Source: Deltaproteobacteria bacterium
Lineage (GTDB): Bacteria > Desulfobacterota > Syntrophobacteria > Syntrophobacterales > Syntrophobacteraceae
Direction of reading: 5' to 3'
Assembly: GCA_021813685.1 (NCBI GenBank)
Contig: JAKAJS010000146.1
Location: 1 to 49,882 of the forward strand
DNA: 49,882 bases
Below the pieces are notes generated by a model. That model searched no databases. It saw nothing but the letters and a program-made list of their open reading frames with translations, and was not told the origin of the DNA. The translations under genes were made by a program, and so were the position numbers. Of the stretch, positions 9,168 to 33,671 are shown piece by piece (the stretch's first letter is position 1; every line of letters starts with the position of its first letter).

Positions 9168-10241
9168 CTAAGACCCGAAGATTTCGACAAACCTCTTGAA
9201 CCGTACTCGTCGGCTCGCTATTCGTTGGGGGGAGGCGCTTGAGTGTATTATAAAGTTATGATCCCTTTTAGATCGATCAGCTTCATCACTACTAAAAGCC
9301 CGTTCCAGCTTCGCTATATCTCCTAATATTTTATCTTTTGAGGCCAAATTTCTCCTTTCAGGCATTTCTCCTGTTTTATCCTTTGACACAATCTGTCCAT
9401 CAGGAATTCCAAATTTGTGGTGCAAGATTGCAGCAAACATCATCAGCAACTGGTAGTGTTTACAAAACTGATTAGAGAGAATTTCTGGGGCTGTGTTTTC
9501 GAGAAAGCCCATAGCAAATTCTAATTTCTTTATGATATTAGTGTGGACAGAGTCAGTAAATTGGGAGTCATCTTGTTCTTTATACAATTTATGAAGTCGC
9601 GAGGCGCCTCCGTCTGTTACCCCATTCAGAATTAAACTAAAAGCCTCAGCGATAAACTCATCATCCGCCATCCGAAATCGTTGCTTTATTGTAAAGATAT
9701 TAAACTTTTCAATGAATGGTCGAAATCGTTCTGCCGCTTTTCTAACAGCAAATTTAAATTCAGTTTGAAATTCAGCATGGCGTTTTTCCGCCGGATTCAA
9801 TGTTACAGTGTACGAATTTAAGCGAGCAAATATGTCGATAATATCGTCATCTGTGGCATTTAGAAGTTGTTCTACGGTAAGAGTATATCCCAAAAATATT
9901 TCTTTGTGATCATCATCTAAGTTTTCGTAGGATAATCCCTTAAAGTCCTCAGATCGTTTCAATAATTTGAATTTATTATCTGCAAAATCCACTATGGCTC
10001 GGATTCTTTGTTGGCCATCAACGACCTCACGTATACTTGTTTGACGTTTAGGGTCCAAAATAGTTCTGATAAAAAGTTTGGGAATTGGAAGTTCGTGAAG
10101 TATAGTGTCTATTAGGAACGTCTTTGCCTGCGGTGTCCATACAGAATACCGTTGAAATGTTTCATTAATCACTAATTCCTTCTTTCGATACCACTGAACA
10201 ATATCCGAAACTTGCAGGGTTAAAGGCTTGGATTTTGCCAC
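9168..10241 (-). CDS. DUF262 (GmrSD N-terminal-like) domain protein
   Basis: A 357-residue protein with an N-terminal DUF262 domain of the ParB/sulfiredoxin-like nucleotide-binding fold: FQRYSVW, then IREVVDGQQRIRAIVDF with the hallmark DGQQR near residue 90. This domain forms the sensor half of GmrSD-type modification-dependent restriction enzymes and of several defence genes. The C-terminal half is helical, carries no recognised nuclease (no HNH DUF1524 motif) and ends with RDHNFIIHSSAS. The start is GTG 10241, preceded by AAGGGGGTG; a sigma-70-like promoter lies about 70 bases upstream. A partner HEPN-like gene follows after 8 bases. AT-rich composition and flanking dnaE repeats suggest horizontal gain. 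Confidence 0.85.
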   Translation of the reverse strand: MAKSKPLTLQVSDIVQWYRKKELVINETFQRYSVWTPQAKTFLIDTILHELPIPKLFIRTILDPKRQTSIREVVDGQQRIRAIVDFADNKFKLLKRSEDFKGLSYENLDDDHKEIFLGYTLTVEQLLNATDDDIIDIFARLNSYTVTLNPAEKRHAEFQTEFKFAVRKAAERFRPFIEKFNIFTIKQRFRMADDEFIAEAFSLILNGVTDGGASRLHKLYKEQDDSQFTDSVHTNIIKKLEFAMGFLENTAPEILSNQFCKHYQLLMMFAAILHHKFGIPDGQIVSKDKTGEMPERRNLASKDKILGDIAKLERAFSSDEADRSKRDHNFIIHSSASPQRIASRRVRFKRFVEIFGS

Positions 10242-24207: not shown

Positions 24208-24978
24208 ATGCAGACATTTGAGAGACACAACAAGGTCTACTTCCTTGACGAAGACGGTTTTCTACTCGACCAGGAGCAATGGGACGAGGATTTTGCCGAG
24301 GGCATGGCGCCGGCACTGGGAATTCCGGACGGTCTTACCCCCTCCCACTGGGACGTTTTGCGGTTCATTCGAGACGCCTGGCGGCAAACAGGCGTATGCC
24401 CCGTGGTGTATAAGACAGGCAGGGCAAAAGGGCTGAGCGTCAAAGACATGCAAAAGCTTTTCCCCTCCGGCTATCAGCGCGGGGCGTGCAAGCTTGCGGG
24501 TCTCTCGTTTATGAGTGCGGTCCTCAAACAGGCCGAGCTTCAATTCCGGCTGGAGGCCGGTAAGGCTGCCGGTTTGCCTCGCATGGATGCCGACGCGCGC
24601 GCCCCTTCGCATCCGACACAAAACGGTCCGGTAAAGCCGATTCCTCTCGCGGAAAGAGTCTATCGGGTAAATGTTCACGGCTTTCTAATCGATCCGGGCG
24701 AGTGGGATGAAGAATTTGCCGTCTTCAAGGCTTGCGAACTGCAAATGAGCGGGCCTCTCGGCGAAAAGCAGTGGCAGATCATCCGGTACATGCGCGCGGA
24801 ATATAAAAGGAGCGGTGAGATCCCCACCGTCTATGCGACCTGCGAGGCCGTCGGGATCGATCTGGAGGAACTCTCCCAACTTTTCCCCTCCGGCTATCAT
24901 CGCGGGGCCGTTAAGATCGCGGGCTTGAACCTTTCGACAGCAGGGCGTTCCGGCGCGCCGGCGCGCGCGCCCTCCTGA
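24208..24978 (+). CDS. Tandem DsrC/TusE-family fusion protein
   Basis: A 256-residue protein made of two DsrC-like domains joined by a Pro/Ala-rich linker (about residues 105-150). Both show the family layout: DEDGFLLDQEQWDEDFAEGM and DPGEWDEEFAVF at the start; HWDVLRFIRDAW and QWQIIRYMRAEY in the middle; LFPSGYQRGACKLAGLS and LFPSGYHRGAVKIAGLN at the end. In DsrC two cysteines on the C-terminal arm carry sulfur during sulfite reduction; TusE keeps only the last. Domain 1 has only the upstream one (GACK) and domain 2 has neither (GAVK). Simple sulfur shuttling is therefore unlikely and a regulatory or binding role is inferred. GGGAAGGGGG precedes the ATG. Sensor kinases flank it on both sides. 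Confidence 0.9.
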   Translation: MQTFERHNKVYFLDEDGFLLDQEQWDEDFAEGMAPALGIPDGLTPSHWDVLRFIRDAWRQTGVCPVVYKTGRAKGLSVKDMQKLFPSGYQRGACKLAGLSFMSAVLKQAELQFRLEAGKAAGLPRMDADARAPSHPTQNGPVKPIPLAERVYRVNVHGFLIDPGEWDEEFAVFKACELQMSGPLGEKQWQIIRYMRAEYKRSGEIPTVYATCEAVGIDLEELSQLFPSGYHRGAVKIAGLNLSTAGRSGAPARAPS

Positions 24979-25205: not shown

Positions 25206-26708
25206 ATGAATGACAATTTCGAAAACCAGGCGGGAAACGCCCGGGCAACGCGCTACGGATTTTTCTCATCCATCCGGAGGCGATTTCTTTTACTGGTCCT
25301 CGCGGTGCTTATTCCGGTTCTGCTCGTCCAGGGCGCGTATCTATACGTGCGATACAGGGATCTCATGAAAGGCGAAACCCGCCAGACCGTGCAGACCTCG
25401 CGGGCAGTGGCGGCTGCTTGCGAGGGGTTCCTGACGGGCCTTCTGCTTTCGAAGACGGCCGTGGGGACCAGCCTTACGATGCCTCCGTCTCTCGCTCCGC
25501 AGGAGGTGGAGAGGATGCTGAAAGCAAACGCGGCCGGGTTTGCTGCAGTCCGTAATTTCGCTTGGCTCGGCCCGCATGGCCGAATCGACGCCTCCTGCCG
25601 CCGATCGGCCCTCGGCTTGTGCCTGAGCGGCAGCCCCCTCGATCCCGGGAGAGATGAAGCGGTGACTATTCTGGACAGCCGGGGCGCAACAGTCTGGCGA
25701 TTTCCGGGGAGCGGGCCTCCCTGGTCCGGGCATGCCGGGTTAAAGAATCTGCCCGCCGTCCGAAAGGCCTTGGAAGGCAGGGAGAGCATCGGAGCGATTC
25801 CCTCGGACCATGGGGAAAAAGAGAGCATTGCGGCTTTTACCCCTATCCCTTCCATTGGCTGGATTGCATGTGCCAGTCGACCGGAAAATGCTGTGATGGA
25901 CTCGATCAAATCGCGGGTGCTGCGCGAGGGGCTTCCTTTTTTTCTTTTCCTGGGCACGCTCTTTTTGATCACCGGAATACTCGTAGTCGCCCTCGATGTT
26001 ACCGATCTGAGGCATGCGCAGCAGGCGTTGCAACGATCGGATACCAGGCTGCGGTTTCTCTCCGCGCAGCTTCTTTCGGCTCATGAGGAAGAAAGAAAAC
26101 GGATCGCAAGGGAGCTCCACGACTCGGTGGGGTCCTCGCTTGCCCTCATCAAGATGGGGATTGAAAGCACGCAGGCCGAACTCAAACGAAAGGGATGCTG
26201 CCCGGGGATGCTCGATTCTTCGATCCGGTGGACCCAACTTACGATCGACGAGATACGAAGACTCATGGTCGATCTGCGCCCTCCTCTTCTCGACGACATG
26301 GGAGTGCTTGCGGCCCTTCGATGGTTTTTCGCACAATATCGGGCGGTTCATCCGGCAATCCACGTCGAGGCCCGGATCGACATCGAAGAACAGGAGATCC
26401 CCGAGTCTCTCCGGATTGTGATCTTCCGGATCATCCAGGAAGCCTTCCACAATATCGCCAGGCACAGCGGCGCCGAGTACGTCGATTTTTCGCTCGCCAA
26501 ACAGAAGGATGCCATAAAGCTCCGGATAGAGGATAACGGGGTTGGATTCGACACGGAAGCCAATTGTGACCGGCACGGGCTCGGCCTGGCCGGCATGAAG
26601 GAGAGATCCGAGCTTTCCGGGGGCTCTTTCAGCGTCCGTTCGGCCCCCGACACCGGGACTCTCTTGAGCGCCGAGTGGCCGGTAAATATCCCCGAACGTT
26701 CCGGCTGA
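25206..26708 (+). CDS. Membrane sensor histidine kinase, NarL/HisKA_3 type
   Basis: About 500 residues. Membrane helix 1 lies near residues 21-43 (LLVLAVLIPVLLVQGAYLY) and helix 2 near 246-270 (FFLFLGTLFLITGILVVAL); about 200 residues between them form a Cache-like outside sensor. The cytoplasmic part has ERKRIARELHDSVGSSLALI (His acceptor), EAFHNIARHSGAEY, EDNGVGFD and GMKERSELSGG. The ligand is unknown. ATG 25206 has AGGCG upstream; TTG 25173 and ATG 25176 are in-frame alternatives. It follows the DsrC fusion by about 230 bases on the same strand. No LuxR-type regulator is next to it. Confidence 0.9.
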   Translation: MNDNFENQAGNARATRYGFFSSIRRRFLLLVLAVLIPVLLVQGAYLYVRYRDLMKGETRQTVQTSRAVAAACEGFLTGLLLSKTAVGTSLTMPPSLAPQEVERMLKANAAGFAAVRNFAWLGPHGRIDASCRRSALGLCLSGSPLDPGRDEAVTILDSRGATVWRFPGSGPPWSGHAGLKNLPAVRKALEGRESIGAIPSDHGEKESIAAFTPIPSIGWIACASRPENAVMDSIKSRVLREGLPFFLFLGTLFLITGILVVALDVTDLRHAQQALQRSDTRLRFLSAQLLSAHEEERKRIARELHDSVGSSLALIKMGIESTQAELKRKGCCPGMLDSSIRWTQLTIDEIRRLMVDLRPPLLDDMGVLAALRWFFAQYRAVHPAIHVEARIDIEEQEIPESLRIVIFRIIQEAFHNIARHSGAEYVDFSLAKQKDAIKLRIEDNGVGFDTEANCDRHGLGLAGMKERSELSGGSFSVRSAPDTGTLLSAEWPVNIPERSG

Positions 26709-27039: not shown

Positions 27040-28746
27040 ATGCTGATGGCGCAAAAGAGTCTCAAGGCTGTGACGGAATTGGTGGAAGGACCGACAGAGG
27101 GCTACCTGGAAGCCCTTGGGGCGCTGGTGGGCCGGGGAGCGATCCGGAGGCCCGAGTTGGAAAGGATCGTTGACGAGTCGGAGGGGTCTCTCAGGCGCAT
27201 CGAGAAGTCGCTTCGCGCCCTGGGCGTTCCCAAACATGAGATCCTGCTGAGTTTGAGCACCCACTACGGCCTTCCGTTCGCAGAATTTCGTGAGAGACTG
27301 TCGGCGCCCGAGGAGATTCTCGAGCGGCTCGATTTTTCCGAGCTCAAGCGCGACCTGTGGTTCCCGATTTCTGTCACGACAAAAGAGGCGCGGGTGGTGA
27401 CCTCGAACCCGGGCGACCCGATGCTTCTCGACAAGATCAAAGGCAAGCTGGGAAAAGAGACGATTCGCTATATCTTTGCCCTGCCCACCGACATAATCCG
27501 CTTGATCGAGCACAGCCAGGATGTCAACCCGGGGTTTCCCCCCGAAGCCGGACGGACCCCTTTGGCGCGACTCCGCACCCGGCTTGCGGGCGAACGCACG
27601 ATCATGTCCCTCTACAGAAACACCATGGCAAAGGGCAGAACCGGCCTTGCCGCTATCCGGGCCGGGGTCCAGCTCGTCGCCATCAGCCTCACTCTTCTCA
27701 GGATTTTCGGGATCGGCTGGCTCAGCATCCTCGAGGCGGTCATTCTGTTTGGCGGGATCTTCATGGTGGTGGAGGGCATCACCTGGTACATGCCCATGAG
27801 AAAACTCGAGCCCAAGGGCATTGGCTATGTGCCTGCGCGGTCGACTTTCGGGACAACCATTGCGCAGATCAACTCGACCGAAGTCGGCACAGTGCTCACG
27901 AGATCCGACCCGGTCCCGGGGGCACAGGAGCTTCGCAACCGCTGGGCGCGGCTTTCTCCGGTCATGAGACGCAGATTTTTCGCGATCGACAGGACCGACC
28001 TTGCCGAAGAGAGGACTCTTCTGGCGATGTATCGCACCAAAATGGCGCGTTCCAGAACGGGCCTCGCCTTCGCCAGCACGGGCACCTCGGTGGTGGGCTT
28101 CGGGATACTTCTGTGGAGAAACTACCCCATCGGAGCCTGGTCTGTTTTTTATGCGGGTTTGATCGTGATGGGCGCCGTGATGTTTTTGGAGGGCGCCAGG
28201 TGGTATTTTCCGGGGCGGCGCGCGGTTGTGGAAAGCATCAAGACGACCCGCCAGATCGAGGAAAGCACCTCGATCTGGGATTTCATGTTCCGGGCCTTCA
28301 GCCGCCTGGACGATCTGCCGCCCAAACTGACGCTGAAAGGTTCTTATGCCCCGGGCATCTGGGGAACCACCGGGCTTGCCCTGGAGAGAACCCTTCTTGC
28401 CGAGAGGCGAAACGTCAAGGCGAGGCTCCGGACGACGCTGGCTAGGTCCAGGACCGGTCTGAGGTTCATCCGGACGGGAATGAGCATTTTTTCCGTCGGC
28501 TTCGGTCTGCAGGCCTATTTCGGCTTCGCCAATCTCTGGTGGACTCTTTTCGATTTCGTTCTGATTATCGCCGGGCTGTTCATGACGGCCGAAGGCATCT
28601 TCTGGTACGTGAAGGCGGAGCGCAGGAAAAAGCAGCTGCCCTATTGCTGGGAAGGCCTCGAGATCCGGATACCCGACTACGGTAAACCCAACCAGTTGTG
28701 GAAAAAGGTGACGTTTAGTTATGAAGACAATGAGTGCGGCGGCTGA
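27040..28746 (+). CDS. MshEN-like protein with three DUF202 membrane domains
   Basis: A 568-residue membrane protein of an unusual build. Residues about 10-165 resemble the GspE/PilB N-terminal (MshEN) fold (LGALVGRGAIRRPELERIVD, STHYGLPFAEF, LPTDIIRLIE). Three DUF202 units follow, each an arginine-rich amphipathic helix then a membrane hairpin: LAGERTIMSLYRNTMAKGRT (near 187), LAEERTLLAMYRTKMARSRT (near 323) and LALERTLLAERRN (near 446), each running into RTGL and about 60 hydrophobic residues. DUF202 proteins are normally single units of about 100 residues. No ATPase follows the MshEN part, and the canonical c-di-GMP RLG...Q motif is not evident. Start at 27040 or ATG 27046; weak ribosome site. 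It overlaps the next gene by 26 bases. Confidence 0.88.
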   Translation: MLMAQKSLKAVTELVEGPTEGYLEALGALVGRGAIRRPELERIVDESEGSLRRIEKSLRALGVPKHEILLSLSTHYGLPFAEFRERLSAPEEILERLDFSELKRDLWFPISVTTKEARVVTSNPGDPMLLDKIKGKLGKETIRYIFALPTDIIRLIEHSQDVNPGFPPEAGRTPLARLRTRLAGERTIMSLYRNTMAKGRTGLAAIRAGVQLVAISLTLLRIFGIGWLSILEAVILFGGIFMVVEGITWYMPMRKLEPKGIGYVPARSTFGTTIAQINSTEVGTVLTRSDPVPGAQELRNRWARLSPVMRRRFFAIDRTDLAEERTLLAMYRTKMARSRTGLAFASTGTSVVGFGILLWRNYPIGAWSVFYAGLIVMGAVMFLEGARWYFPGRRAVVESIKTTRQIEESTSIWDFMFRAFSRLDDLPPKLTLKGSYAPGIWGTTGLALERTLLAERRNVKARLRTTLARSRTGLRFIRTGMSIFSVGFGLQAYFGFANLWWTLFDFVLIIAGLFMTAEGIFWYVKAERRKKQLPYCWEGLEIRIPDYGKPNQLWKKVTFSYEDNECGG

Positions 28747-29938
28747 TTCGACGGCAAGCTTCAAACCGCTGGTGGACTGGGGGCTCATGAGCGCAGACGA
28801 ACTGCGCTTGGCGGTCGAGTCGGCCCGTGTCCGAGACATCGAAGTAGAAGAAGTGCTGCGCTACGAGCGGGGAATCCAGCGCCGCAAGCTCCTCGACGCG
28901 CTCGCCCTTTCTTTCGGATGCGACTGGGTCGAGTACGACGAAAGAATACCGGTACCCGCCGAACTCCTGGAGGACCTGGATCCCGAAAGACTCGATTTGA
29001 AGCTCTGGTTTCCTGTCGCGCTGGACGGGGAAACGGTGATAATCGCAGCCAGGTATCCCACCGATCCCTTCGTGATCGAGGATGTCAGGGAATGCATGGG
29101 GGCGGACAGAAACTATGAGTTTTTCGTGGCTCTTGCCGAGGATATTACCTTTTTTATAGAGGATTTTCTCAACTCCGACCCGGAGCATCTTTCCGGAAAC
29201 GAAAGAACCTCTCTGGCGATGTGGCGCAATACGATGGCTCTGTGGAGGACCAAACTTGCCACCTACCGCACCGATTTCGCCACCGTCAGGACCTTCATGA
29301 GTTTCCTGGGAACGGGGTTGACTTTCATACTGGTTGGAAGAACGCTTCTCAGAAACGGCAAGGCCGTTCACCTCGTACCGTTTCACTGGGCGATGGTCAT
29401 TTTCGGTTTGCTTTTGATACTTCTGGGCATGATCAGCTACTACAGAATCAAAAGATCCTATTTCCGCCCGCCCAGGCACCAGACGCTCATAGAAGTTACG
29501 GCGGCAAGCGTGCAGTTTCTCGAAGACTACCAGTTCGTAGACCCGGGGGAAGTGGAAAAAAAAGAGGGCAAGACCATGCTGGCCCGCCTTTTCGATCTGG
29601 TCAATCGCACGGTGGCCGATGTGGGCGCCTCGCGCGACAACAAAGCCCGTTCTCTTCTGGCTCACCAGAGAAGCATTTTTGCGGCCCGACGCACCGTAGC
29701 CGCCTGTTACCGCACCATCTATGCGCGGGCAAGAACCGGGCTTTCCTTCATCAGCATCGGCGTCTCCTTCGTATCCGTGGGGTTGGGCTTTATCGAGTAT
29801 TTTCACCCGAGCCTTCTCAATGTGCTCGATGCCTTCATGATCGTTTTGGGGCTTCTCATGATCGCAGACGGCATCATGTGGTCCTGGCCGTGCCGCAAAG
29901 AAAACTACGAGGCGTTAAAAAGCGGGGAGGCGTTCTAA
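28721..29938 (+). CDS. MshEN-like protein with two DUF202 membrane domains
   Basis: A 405-residue paralogue of the preceding gene product. MshEN-like part about residues 12-145 (LVDWGLMSADELRLAVESAR, LALSFGCDWVEYDERIPVPA, PTDPFVIEDV). Two DUF202 units: GNERTSLAMWRNTMALWRTK (near 159) and RTVAACYRTIYARARTGLS (near 327), each followed by a membrane hairpin. Its MshEN part and the order MshEN then DUF202 match its neighbour, so the pair arose by duplication with loss or gain of one unit. It overlaps the first gene by 26 bases and ends 2 bases before the kinase start, so all are translated from one message. A membrane complex with the neighbour is inferred. Function unknown. Confidence 0.88.
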   Translation: MKTMSAAADSTASFKPLVDWGLMSADELRLAVESARVRDIEVEEVLRYERGIQRRKLLDALALSFGCDWVEYDERIPVPAELLEDLDPERLDLKLWFPVALDGETVIIAARYPTDPFVIEDVRECMGADRNYEFFVALAEDITFFIEDFLNSDPEHLSGNERTSLAMWRNTMALWRTKLATYRTDFATVRTFMSFLGTGLTFILVGRTLLRNGKAVHLVPFHWAMVIFGLLLILLGMISYYRIKRSYFRPPRHQTLIEVTAASVQFLEDYQFVDPGEVEKKEGKTMLARLFDLVNRTVADVGASRDNKARSLLAHQRSIFAARRTVAACYRTIYARARTGLSFISIGVSFVSVGLGFIEYFHPSLLNVLDAFMIVLGLLMIADGIMWSWPCRKENYEALKSGEAF

Positions 29939-29940
29939 CC

Positions 29941-31371
29941 TTGAGGCAGGTGAAGATATTCCATAAGATCATCGCGGCGAATCTCGCCAATATTTTGCTG
30001 ATCCTCGTCACCGGCTTTCTTGCCTACCACAGTCTGGACCAGGTGTTGACAAAGCTCCGGTTCATGGAGATAGCCGATGGGTTGAGCGCGTCTTTTCTCG
30101 AAATGAGGCTGGCGGAAAAAAACTTTTTCCTGTACGGAGAAAAATCGGCCCTTCCGGAAATCCAGGCGAAAATCGACGAGACACTCGCAACAGTCAAGCG
30201 CGAAAGGCCCGACATCGTAAGCGCGATCGGCGAGGCCAAAACGGCGGGGCTCGAGTCCAATCTCCAAAATTACGGCCATACGCTCCAACAGGCCGGCACG
30301 GGGGGCGCTCCGTCGCAGGCGAAGGTCCGGGCCGCCGGCCACAAGCTCATGGGATTCATGACCTATATCACCGCCTCCGAACGTACGGAGGTAAACAGAA
30401 TCATCGCGGGTTCCGAAAGAGGGCTGTTTTTGTCGTTTGCGCTCATCCTGTTTACCGCCGTCGGCGTTACGCTGCTTCTGTCGGTACGGGTTCTGGGGTC
30501 GCTCAAGCGCATCGAGAAGGCCGCGCACCTGATTTCGGGGGGCGAATTCGAAAAAATCGAACCGGAAAAGTCCCGTGACGAATGTGGAATGGCCGTTTCG
30601 GCGTTGCTCACCATGGCCGGGGAGTTGCGAAACCGGGAGGAACAGATGATCGAGGCAAGAAAGCTTGCCTCCATCGGCATCCTCATCGCGGGCGTCTCCC
30701 ACGAAATCGGCAATCCTTTGAACAACATCTCCATGCTTGCACAAAACTTTGTCGAACTCTATGATAGAATGAACAGGGACGAACACATCGAGTATGTGAA
30801 AAGGATCGAGGATGAAACCGGGCGTATTCAGAGAATCGTAAAGGATCTGCTCGATTTTGCCAGGCCAAGGAAGCCCGACTTCCATGAGACCGATATCAAC
30901 AGTGTGATCACGAAGAGCATGCGGCTCGTACAGAACATGATCTCGGTCTGTAACCTCGACGCGCAGCTGGATCTGGAAGAGCGATTGCCAACGGTCTATA
31001 TAGACGAGGACCAAATTCAGGGAGTGCTCGTCAACCTGCTCACAAACTCCATTCACGCCTGTTCGCCGGGCGACAGGCTGCGCCTGGCGACCCGTTTCAA
31101 CCCCGGGTCGGCCCGCGTGGAAGTCGAGGTGGAAGATACGGGCGGGGGAATCTCCCCGGAGATTTTGCCCCATATCTTCGATCCTTTCTTCACCACCAAA
31201 GGAGCGAGCGGAACGGGGCTGGGCCTGTTTGTAAGCTATGGAATCATCAAGAACCACAAGGGCGAGATGCGGGTAAAGAGCGAAGCGGGGGCCGGCACCT
31301 GCTTCACCATAGAGTTTCCGGTGCACGGCACTACGGAAAGGAGCGAATCATGCCTGATTTCAGGGTCATAG
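29941..31371 (+). CDS. Membrane sensor histidine kinase with HAMP (NtrB/ZraS-like core)
   Basis: About 476 residues. Membrane helix 1 near residues 12-32 (ANLANILLILVTGFLAYHS), a helical outside domain like four-helix-bundle chemoreceptor sensors, helix 2 near 157-180 (LFLSFALILFTAVGVTLLLS), HAMP (RVLGSLKRIEKAAHLISGGEF), then the H box IAGVSHEIGNPLNNISMLA and the ATPase with VLVNLLTNSIHAC, DTGGGIS and GTGLGLFVSYGI. The start is probably TTG 29941: the upstream gene stops at 29938 and GGGGAGG lies 10 bases before. The open frame extends further upstream only as a shadow of the DUF202 gene. It overlaps the receiver gene by 22 bases. It is the signalling part of the operon. Confidence 0.88.
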   Translation: MRQVKIFHKIIAANLANILLILVTGFLAYHSLDQVLTKLRFMEIADGLSASFLEMRLAEKNFFLYGEKSALPEIQAKIDETLATVKRERPDIVSAIGEAKTAGLESNLQNYGHTLQQAGTGGAPSQAKVRAAGHKLMGFMTYITASERTEVNRIIAGSERGLFLSFALILFTAVGVTLLLSVRVLGSLKRIEKAAHLISGGEFEKIEPEKSRDECGMAVSALLTMAGELRNREEQMIEARKLASIGILIAGVSHEIGNPLNNISMLAQNFVELYDRMNRDEHIEYVKRIEDETGRIQRIVKDLLDFARPRKPDFHETDINSVITKSMRLVQNMISVCNLDAQLDLEERLPTVYIDEDQIQGVLVNLLTNSIHACSPGDRLRLATRFNPGSARVEVEVEDTGGGISPEILPHIFDPFFTTKGASGTGLGLFVSYGIIKNHKGEMRVKSEAGAGTCFTIEFPVHGTTERSESCLISGS

Positions 31372-31727
31372 TGATAGACGACGAAAAAATTGTAGGGCAA
31401 ATGATAAAGGTCGCCATGGAGCCCGAGGGCTATACGGTGGAGACCTTTCTCAATGCCGAACCGGCCTTTGCGAGGCTCCGAGAGGAGAAGTTCGACGTCG
31501 TCATTACCGACCTGAAGATGAAGGGCACCGACGGCATGGATGTGCTGCGCACGATCAAAACGGCCTACCCGGACATCAAGGTCATCATGATCACGGCCTT
31601 TGCGAGTCTGGATTCGGCGGTGGAAGCCATGAAAAGCAAGGTGGACGGCTTTTTCGCCAAACCGGTCAAAATAAAGGAATTGAAGGAATGCGTCCGGAAA
31701 CTTTTGACCCCGGCAGAACCGGGGTAG
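31350..31727 (+). CDS. Single-domain response regulator
   Basis: A 125-residue receiver-only protein. Acidic pocket VIDDEK, phospho-Asp in VVITDLKMKGTDGMDVLRTI, Thr in MITAFAS, Lys in FFAKPVK. The sequence is closest to the receivers of NtrC-type regulators but the AAA and DNA-binding parts are absent. Its start overlaps the kinase end by 22 bases, so kinase and receiver are made together and are the likely cognate pair. With no output domain it must act by binding a protein, plausibly the MshEN/DUF202 complex. A CCCCGG-CAGAA-CCGGGG hairpin (31708-31724) covers its last codons. Confidence 0.93.
   Translation: MPDFRVIVIDDEKIVGQMIKVAMEPEGYTVETFLNAEPAFARLREEKFDVVITDLKMKGTDGMDVLRTIKTAYPDIKVIMITAFASLDSAVEAMKSKVDGFFAKPVKIKELKECVRKLLTPAEPG
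31708..31724 (+). terminator. Small hairpin at the operon end
   Basis: CCCCGG-CAGAA-CCGGGG, a perfect 6-bp stem overlapping the last codons of the receiver gene. It has no T-run, so it may be an attenuator or mRNA 3' end rather than a classical terminator. Confidence 0.4.
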
Positions 31728-31901: not shown

Positions 31902-33671
31902 CTAATATCTTTCAAACTCTTCGTAAGTCCCCTCTCCTTCCAAATGGAGATCAACGCCTTTGCCCCTGCGGCGCTCCTCACCACTTGCCAAAGAGCCATC
32001 GCCCGTCGTTTTGGCACCCTCGAGCTTTCTATGGATTGCCCCCGAGGACACATGGGCTATAGACGTCCCTTGCGACGCTTTTTTCCCTGCGCGGCCGCTT
32101 CCGGTGCGCCGGCTACTCTGGTAATCGGCGCCTGACGCCATCTGTGAAGCGCTGCCGTTTCCGACTTTGAAGAACGCGATAGAGCTTTGCAACTGAACTG
32201 CCTGAGTTTGGAGTTCCTCGGATGCTGCGGCCATCTCCTCGGAGGCGGAAGCGTTTTGCTGAATGACCAGATCGAGTTGCTGGAGCGCCCTGTTGATTTG
32301 TTCTCCACCGGTTCTTTGCTCGTTGCATGCGGAACTGATCTCCTGCACCAGGTCGGCCGTTTTCTGGATATCCGGGACGAGGCTGTGGAGCATCGCTCCC
32401 GCCTCTTCGGCAATCTCGACGCTCGAGATGGAGAGTTCGCTGATTTCGGCTGCCGCCGTCTGACTCCGCTCGGCGAGCTTTCTCACCTCCGAGGCCACCA
32501 CCGCAAATCCCTTGCCGTGCTCTCCGGCGCGGGCGGCCTCAATCGCGGCGTTTAGCGCCAACAGGTTGGTCTGCCGCGCAATTTCCTCTATGATCGAAAT
32601 CTTGCTCGCTATTTCCTTCATCGCCGTCACGGTCTGGGCCACGGACTTTCCGCCTTCTCTGGCGTCTCCTGCGGATTTTACGGCGATTCTTTCGGTCTGC
32701 ATGGCGTTATCGGCGTTTTGACTGATATTGGAACCCATCTGCTCCATAGAGGAGGATACTTCTTCAGCCGAAGCGGCCTGTTCGGTAGCGCCCTGCGACA
32801 TCTGCTCGGCCGTAGCGCTCAATTCTTCGCTTCCCGCCGCCACGTTTTCAGCCGCGGCCCGCACATCGCTCACGACCTGACGAAGACTTTCGATCATCCG
32901 CTTCATCGCTGCGAGCAATTCTCCCGTCTCATCGCTGGTCCGAACCTCGATATCCATGTCCAGATGCCCCTCGGCGAGTTCATTCGAGGTCTTGACACAC
33001 TCTATGATCGGTTTGCTGATCGTGCCGGAGATGAAGAAGCCGAGCCCTATGCCCAGCAGTACGGATAGAGCGACGACCACGAGCATAAGGGTGCGTGTCC
33101 TGGCATACAACTCACCGCTGGCAAGATAGGTATCCTTCCCTTCGGCGTCTTTCGCCTTGGAAAGAGTTTCGAGAAGATCGTCGATTACTTTGGCCTTTTC
33201 GCTTCCTTTGGAAAATGCCAGAGTCACTGCCACCTGTTGTTGAGTCGGATCGTTTTTGGAGGCGAGATCGATGACCTGCTTGCCGATCGCACGATAGTCG
33301 TCCCAGGATGTATAAATTTTGGCCAGCAGTTCTTTGCCCTTTTGGCTGGAGATAAGAGGTCTTGCCTTCTCCAGATTGGCCTTCATCGATTTTTCGCTCT
33401 CTACCATTCGCGTTGTAAACTCATCGCGCAAAGTCGCGGAGGGCGCCAGGAGAAAACCTCGCTCCGCACGGCCGAATAAGACCATATCGATATTGGCCTG
33501 CTTTACGTACGAAATTCCCAGCGTCTCCTTTTGATAGAGGTTCCCCAGCATAGTATTGATTCTGTCGATGTTCATTATCCCCAGATAGCCAACCAGGGCG
33601 GTAATCGTAGAGAGCACGAGAAAGGAAACGATCAGTTTTTTGCCGATTTTCAAATTGAAAAACCATTTCAT
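31902..33671 (-). CDS. Methyl-accepting chemotaxis protein (4HB sensor, HAMP)
   Basis: A 589-residue transmembrane chemoreceptor of classical order. Membrane helix 1 about residues 10-32, a four-helix-bundle ligand domain to about 185, membrane helix 2 about 190-213 ([20 protein letters not shown]), HAMP, then the methylated helices and the tip [19 protein letters not shown]. The C-terminus is an extended charged tail ending [11 protein letters not shown]-like, with no clear NWETF pentapeptide for CheR tethering. The ligand is unknown. AAGGAGAAAATCG precedes the ATG. It is convergent with the MshEN/DUF202 operon. Confidence 0.93.

Follow-up and report, generated by a model that had tools for sequence, protein, structure and literature searches.

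A conserved four-gene operon joins multi-DUF202 membrane proteins to a sensor kinase and a stand-alone receiver

We describe a four-gene operon in a 49,882-nucleotide stretch of the genome of a Deltaproteobacteria bacterium of the family Syntrophobacteraceae (contig JAKAJS010000146.1 of assembly GCA_021813685.1; "the window" hereafter). It encodes, in this order, two membrane proteins (A and B) that each join an MshEN-like domain to several DUF202 units, a sensor histidine kinase and a receiver. The four genes form a genuine, conserved system for which the open-licence literature searched gave no description. The first-pass annotation had suggested an undescribed complex; in these open-licence papers we found DUF202 nowhere together with MshEN, and no two-component system with a bacterial DUF202 protein, including in the passage of PMC4602095 that deals with YidH. 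A link between the kinase-receiver pair and the DUF202 proteins is likely. That the pair controls an arginine-lined assembly of five DUF202 units, so that this two-component system would act on a membrane complex and not on a promoter, is our tentative proposal, in which we place somewhat less than even confidence. The fixed count of three plus two DUF202 units, an invariant arginine ladder, the family link between DUF202 and the yeast vacuolar transporter chaperone (VTC) complex and the missing cyclic di-GMP motif of the MshEN domains go beyond the earlier annotation.

Gene order and distribution of the operon

Sought in other genomes, the order A-B-kinase-receiver was kept on one strand in all 15 loci with enough contig (the window, L005-L009, L070-L077 and L083, in our own locus numbering; all frames read), which represent nine genera. 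Locus L073, where A is cut by the contig end, was used for gene order and excluded from the unit count and from residue and identity comparisons, while L078, with A alone at a contig end, was excluded from the gene-order count; kinase matches of <300 residues were dropped in this reading. Because the four genes recur in unchanged order in other genera with A proteins 37-73% identical, the grouping goes beyond chance. In pairwise comparisons of nine divergent loci the A proteins have identities of 0.37-0.73 and the receivers of 0.50-0.89, and the pairwise identities correlate at 0.91 (A with B), 0.94 (A with kinase) and 0.78 (A with receiver). Such correlated divergence would be as expected for genes travelling together; contact is not proven thereby. 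Locus L077 (genome G039) is assigned to the window's genus, and with an A protein only 49% identical, a contig of 8.4 kb and a genome contamination of 8% it may be a misplaced contig.

The system is rare and scattered (nine genera, seven families, one phylum), as the low counts in class and phylum samples indicate. Among 55 genomes of the class, full-length relatives of A occur in 7 of the 11 that belong to the window's genus, counting the window's own genome, and outside it in a single further genus of the family (G026). In phylum samples, A is present in 9/395 genomes, and full-length B in six distant genomes among 297. These three samples cover the window's phylum; one scan of named genomes from all phyla, which detects close relatives only, was added. 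A and B had no match in a PADLOC defence-system search, nor had A in a plasmid search.

As had been noted from the letters, the genes overlap or nearly touch: A and B overlap by 26 bp, 2 bp separate the stop of B from the TTG of the kinase, and kinase and receiver overlap by 22 bp (Table 1). The kinase TTG at 29941 was picked by eye, and since the frame stays open upstream (GTG at 29221), this start is a matter of choice.

A fixed set of five DUF202 units with an arginine ladder

The first-pass annotation had read an MshEN-like domain followed by three DUF202 hairpins in A and by two in B, and hidden Markov model searches bore this out. Both proteins exceed the Pfam cut-offs for MshEN (PF05157, 23.1 bits; A 43.5, B 34.2 bits) and for DUF202 (PF02656, 23.4 bits; A 32.5, B 32.8 bits). 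Pfam flags two DUF202 stretches in A, not three; the third unit appears with B as query, which matches 27550-27807, 27970-28245 and 28375-28617 (E values 7.1e-12, 7.9e-11 and 3.1e-12), and all three units of A and both of B are also recovered with a profile built from these five. By Pfam, neither protein has an SPX or TTM domain, nor an ATPase domain after MshEN.

We found three units in 15/15 complete A proteins and two in 15/15 B proteins. For this count every DUF202 frame of each locus was read and every match listed without a size filter; no A or B had lost a shorter match. In the cyclic di-GMP motif test described below, A and B were told apart by their three or two units, a sorting that would be circular as a unit count. 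DUF202 matches of <60 residues (<75 in one earlier set) were dropped in the motif and gene-order counts; these are heptad repeats of single-unit proteins, and none lies within A or B.

Four arginines spaced by exactly seven residues are invariant in 75/75 units, and a further arginine stands one heptad before them in 60/75 and one heptad after them in 57/75. A tree of all 75 units groups them by position into five clades, with support of 0.998, 0.995, 0.984, 0.999 and 0.719, the lowest belonging to the second unit of B. As each position forms its own clade, the five seem to have been distinct before the lineages parted. By hydropathy, two membrane segments are found in 59/75 units at a threshold of 1.3 and in 70/75 at 1.0, the remainder having one; across thresholds, two segments occur in 59 to 72 of the 75 units, and one unit has three at the mildest. 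Low-confidence AlphaFold2 (AF2) models also draw two membrane helices per unit.

DUF202 occurs in 4/14 control genomes, a range that reaches from E. coli to Sulfolobus. Single-domain bacterial DUF202 proteins (for example G000 C108, G000 being the window's genome), which we take to be of the YidH type, belong to the same Pfam family and have one unit each, and the four-step arginine ladder is absent, by eye, in the single example. An ordinary DUF202 protein of the window's genome (L001), LAAQRTFLAWIRTGLAL, contains only the ladder's end (translated by eye). We know of no kinase-receiver operon for single-domain proteins of the YidH type.

The kinase-receiver pair and its tie to DUF202

The kinase exceeds the Pfam cut-offs for HisKA and HATPase_c, with a HAMP domain at 20.6 bits (under the cut-off of 25). 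The receiver exceeds that of PF00072 and, at 125 residues, has no output domain, in agreement with the first-pass annotation. Two-component hallmarks are thus present on both proteins, and in 14/14 loci the H-box of the kinase is kept and the acid pocket (D10, D11), phospho-Asp (D54), Thr (T82) and Lys (K104) of the receiver are invariant. The two genes are adjacent in 15/15 loci. Spo0F and CheY are stand-alone receivers of two-component systems. The receiver shares a bare architecture and a full active site with such systems (Spo0F, CheY, CpdR), while the proposed target here differs in being a multi-DUF202 membrane assembly. Because the receiver is bare with a full active site, it likely has a protein target.

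The identity of this target is suggested by single-DUF202 proteins found elsewhere. In four genomes (G002, G315, G387 and G405) a single DUF202 unit is fused to a receiver, and at four loci (L082 and L111-L113) a single-DUF202 protein is followed by a kinase and a receiver of the kinds seen in the operon, in matching order. The 14 single-DUF202 proteins with surroundings thus comprise four fusions, four with a kinase-receiver pair and six with neither alongside. They were sampled as six of eight matches by likeness to A or B (G001 and G003 left out) plus eight chosen among the matches listed; as the latter eight came from a query containing a receiver, the shares are biased upward. The six found by A/B likeness (L076, L079-L082 and L084) comprise two fusions, one protein with the pair and three with neither. 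On the sequences at hand, the fusions are the best evidence for a DUF202 protein as the receiver's partner. The first-pass annotation had proposed the DUF202 proteins as the receiver's target; the fusions in four other genomes favour this partnership, and the interaction itself stays at the level of a proposal. In L076 (14165-14890, plus strand), a lone single-DUF202 protein with arginine-threonine (RT) heptads is encoded some 1.5 kb away from a complete operon, on the opposite strand.

Relation of the DUF202 units to yeast VTC

Vtc subunits are classed as DUF202 in passages of PMC7283521 and PMC4400040, and a Vtc1 stretch scores 60.5 bits (E value 2.2e-16) on PF02656. As A and B match this same Pfam family, the family link of their DUF202 units to Vtc1 is firm. 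According to the passage of PMC9911596 on the VTC structure, Vtc1, Vtc3 and Vtc4 form a 3:1:1 pentamer whose channel is built from the first helix of each of the five subunits; K24 and R31 face the pore, with R31 at its narrowest point. We searched all PDB sequences with a profile for which 13 loci supplied 52 units (48 of A/B and four of single-unit proteins); Vtc1 chains are four of the seven matches (E values 0.4 to 1.1) and the only DUF202 proteins met among solved structures. The alignment puts the last invariant arginine (R33) on Vtc1 R31, via a weak match. At the columns equated with R31 (by this weak match) and K24 (by spacing), 75/75 units have arginine, and the K24-R31 step in Vtc1 is seven residues, as in the ladder of A and B.

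DUF202 membrane units, a basic residue at the constriction position and cytoplasmic domains on the same chains are common to VTC and A/B. Both have five units per set, arranged 3:1:1 in VTC and 3+2 in A/B, where they are fused in two chains. The control would differ, with a kinase and receiver here and inositol pyrophosphate in VTC, and the VTC polymerase family is absent in 10/10 operon genomes.

MshEN domains without the cyclic di-GMP motif

The MshEN fold of A and B is likely real, because Foldseek places the N-terminal part of the AF2 model of B with MshE and PilF GSPII structures (best E value 2.3e-4). A relaxed form of the 24-residue cyclic di-GMP binding motif of MshEN, as given in a passage of PMC5013675, was found in 0/30 A and B proteins, with the region before the first DUF202 unit examined in A. 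As positive controls among MshEN proteins of the window's genome, L085 has the motif twice and L088 once, L086 and L087 not at all; it is also absent in 21/21 PilB-like proteins nearest to B, which hence provide no positive control. The A proteins of L070, L071, L074 and L075 appear shortened in the N-terminal half. Since the motif is missing in 30/30, a docking role of these domains seems more likely than nucleotide sensing. The MshEN fold is common to A/B and the MshEN/GSPII domain ATPases (MshE, PilB, PilF), from which A and B differ in having no following ATPase domain and no cyclic di-GMP motif.

Enzyme neighbourhood and possible cargo

The VTC polymerase family (PF09359) was found in 0/10 operon genomes, and PPK2 and PPK1 in 1/10 each, G105 being the single positive both times. 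Polyphosphate is therefore an unlikely cargo, 9/10 genomes having none of the three polymerase families.

A phosphoenolpyruvate (PEP)-synthase-like enzyme of about 860 residues (PPDK_N, PEP-utilizers, mobile histidine domain) is a recurring neighbour. Its gene directly adjoins the DUF202-receiver fusion in 4/4 loci and lies within 20 kb of A-B in 4/8 genomes (G105, G153, G306 and G339; rough chance 7e-4), a count that excluded G039, with its 8.4-kb contig, and the whole window genus; with the window's genome (G000) added, it becomes 4/9 (rough chance 1e-3). In G306, three such genes surround the operon and a fourth lies further upstream. Neither the window nor the stretches L005-L009 have such a gene close to the operon; in G026, G300 and G370 these genes lie elsewhere, and in G055, where the operon contigs are short, on other contigs. 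Such enzymes are common, with two to seven matches per genome in 14 genomes. This neighbourhood might point to an anion of sulfur or to a phosphorylated one, but is too loose to name it.

Additionally, a cluster of a TauE exporter, a TIGR02186-like membrane protein, a PEP-synthase-like enzyme and its own receiver occurs in L070 (1798-6533), L075 (13412-18199), L111 (8759-13595) and L114-L116; it stands beside DUF202 systems in the first three and in stretches without DUF202 in L114-L116, with a sigma-54 regulator near it in L114. In L074 (1-15223, plus strand), four PEP-synthase-like genes (one cut by the stretch) form a row with the A-B-kinase-receiver operon, and the row also includes another kinase and another receiver.

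Features and other genes of the window

Table 1. Features of the four-gene operon in window coordinates
Feature	Position	Strand	Basis
Gene A, 568 residues, MshEN-like domain and three DUF202 units	27040..28746	+	Open reading frame, Pfam, B-vs-A matches, unit profile
MshEN domain of A (residues 76-161)	27265..27522	+	Pfam
DUF202 unit A-d1 (residues 171-255)	27550..27804	+	B match, unit profile, alignment
DUF202 unit A-d2 (residues 310-394)	27967..28221	+	B match, unit profile, alignment
DUF202 unit A-d3 (residues 443-528)	28366..28623	+	Pfam, B match, unit profile, alignment
Gene B, 405 residues, MshEN-like domain and two DUF202 units	28721..29938	+	Open reading frame, Pfam
MshEN domain of B (residues 74-151)	28940..29173	+	Pfam, Foldseek of AF2 model
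DUF202 unit B-d1	29198..29455	+	Unit profile, alignment
DUF202 unit B-d2	29645..29899	+	Unit profile, alignment
Sensor histidine kinase, 476 residues, HAMP (below cut-off), HisKA, HATPase_c	29941..31371	+	Open reading frame, Pfam
Stand-alone receiver, 125 residues, D10, D11, D54, T82, K104	31350..31727	+	Open reading frame, PF00072, alignment

Upstream of gene A by 331 bp, a second sensor kinase (HisKA_3 type) is encoded at 25206-26708 on the plus strand, and a dCache/PAS/HisKA_3 kinase is likewise found upstream of the operon in L005, so the operon may have a further signal system as its neighbour in the window's genus. A chemotaxis receptor (4HB_MCP, HAMP, MCPsignal) at 31902-33671 on the minus strand is convergent with the operon. 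Further upstream, one 256-residue protein with two DsrC domains (PF04358) is encoded at 24208-24978 on the plus strand; its first half has RGACKLAGL, and by eye the second half, with RGAVKIAGL, has another residue in place of the cysteine.

Discussion

Our proposal sets out from observed features: the gene order, the number of domains, the invariant arginines, the conserved active-site residues, the DUF202-receiver fusions and the Vtc1 family link. The kinase would sense something and phosphorylate D54 of the stand-alone receiver, which would in turn bind or modify a membrane complex of A and B. These two proteins would supply three plus two DUF202 units to one five-unit ring resembling the VTC transmembrane part, with the first helices central and four stacked rings of invariant arginine leading from the cytoplasm into the pore; we infer such a ring from the 3:1:1 pentamer of VTC, the R31 alignment and the step of seven. 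The phospho-receiver might then open, close or re-dock this arginine-lined pathway, through which some anion or anionic polymer would pass, and the MshEN domains would be cytoplasmic docking modules, not cyclic di-GMP sensors. The five-unit arginine-lined passage is a specific and testable reading, in which we have somewhat less than even confidence. The most complete version, a bacterial two-component-gated cousin of VTC with all five units in one ring, a cationic tunnel of twenty invariant arginines, a non-polyphosphate anionic cargo and a gate operated by the phospho-receiver, we consider doubtful.

Several observations weigh against this proposal. The PDB profile matches to Vtc1 are weak alone, and an unrelated TetR-type chain ranks higher; moreover, the aligned stretch starts at Vtc1 residue 27, so that K24 is placed by the spacing of seven only. 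The units of A and B apparently have two membrane helices where those of VTC have three, and 3+2=5 may be coincidence. The AF2 models, built with six close sequences each, are poor (A, mean predicted local distance difference test score 53.6 and predicted template modelling score 0.25; B, 61.4 and 0.41). No VTC chain is among the best 50 of 427 Foldseek matches of the B model, of which the MshEN part alone is placed well; ExbB matches, with a root-mean-square deviation of 14 to 31 Å, were not used. The shortage of polyphosphate polymerases does not fit the cargo of VTC. Six of the 14 single-DUF202 loci (L081, L084, L117-L119 and the lone protein of L076) have neither a receiver fusion nor an adjoining kinase-receiver pair, and gene neighbourhood does not prove contact of the products.

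Other explanations have to be weighed against the same evidence. A and B could be a membrane scaffold without a pore, in which arginine-threonine heptad helices form a charged coiled-coil platform that docks the receiver and others. Single-DUF202 relatives do have long regular RT-heptad helices before the hairpin that are hard to fit in a membrane pore; the L082 protein (9259-10068, minus strand) has an extremely regular TELANKR heptad of about 20 repeats by eye, and the AF2 models give each unit a single continuous helix of 48 to 55 residues, at low confidence. The invariance of the four pre-hairpin arginines in all 75 units, the last on the VTC constriction position, argues the other way, and we hold the scaffold to be possible and rather doubtful. 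It is unlikely that the operon is instead a membrane-bound regulator of PEP-synthase-like enzymes, with the receiver and DUF202 proteins anchoring or switching these phosphotransferases: their genes stand beside all four fusions and near A-B in half of the eight genomes counted, but they are absent near the operon in the window and L005-L009, lie elsewhere in G026, G300, G370 and G055, are common in the 14 genomes counted and, in L114-L116, occur in stretches without DUF202.

The remaining two explanations have still lower probability. An ordinary kinase-receiver pair might merely adjoin unrelated membrane genes and signal to a distant regulator, as receivers without an output domain can serve other pathways; the order kept in 15/15 loci over nine genera, the correlated divergence and the DUF202-receiver fusions make this very unlikely. 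We hold it to be about as unlikely that A and B act via MshEN as cyclic di-GMP receptors or work with the motor of a type IV pilus or of type II secretion. Both proteins exceed the Pfam cut-off for this domain, and the B model resembles cyclic di-GMP-bound MshE; against the receptor role, the relaxed motif that is present in L085 and L088 occurs in none of the 30 proteins, and four A proteins look shortened in the N-terminal half.

If true, a kinase-receiver pair controlling a five-unit DUF202 assembly would be a case of a two-component receiver acting on a membrane assembly. With five DUF202 units next to a kinase and a receiver, the operon offers a bacterial handle on DUF202 function; its defined parts, namely A, B, the receiver and the four putative arginine rings, would allow us to ask whether bacterial DUF202 proteins, too, form gated anion passages.

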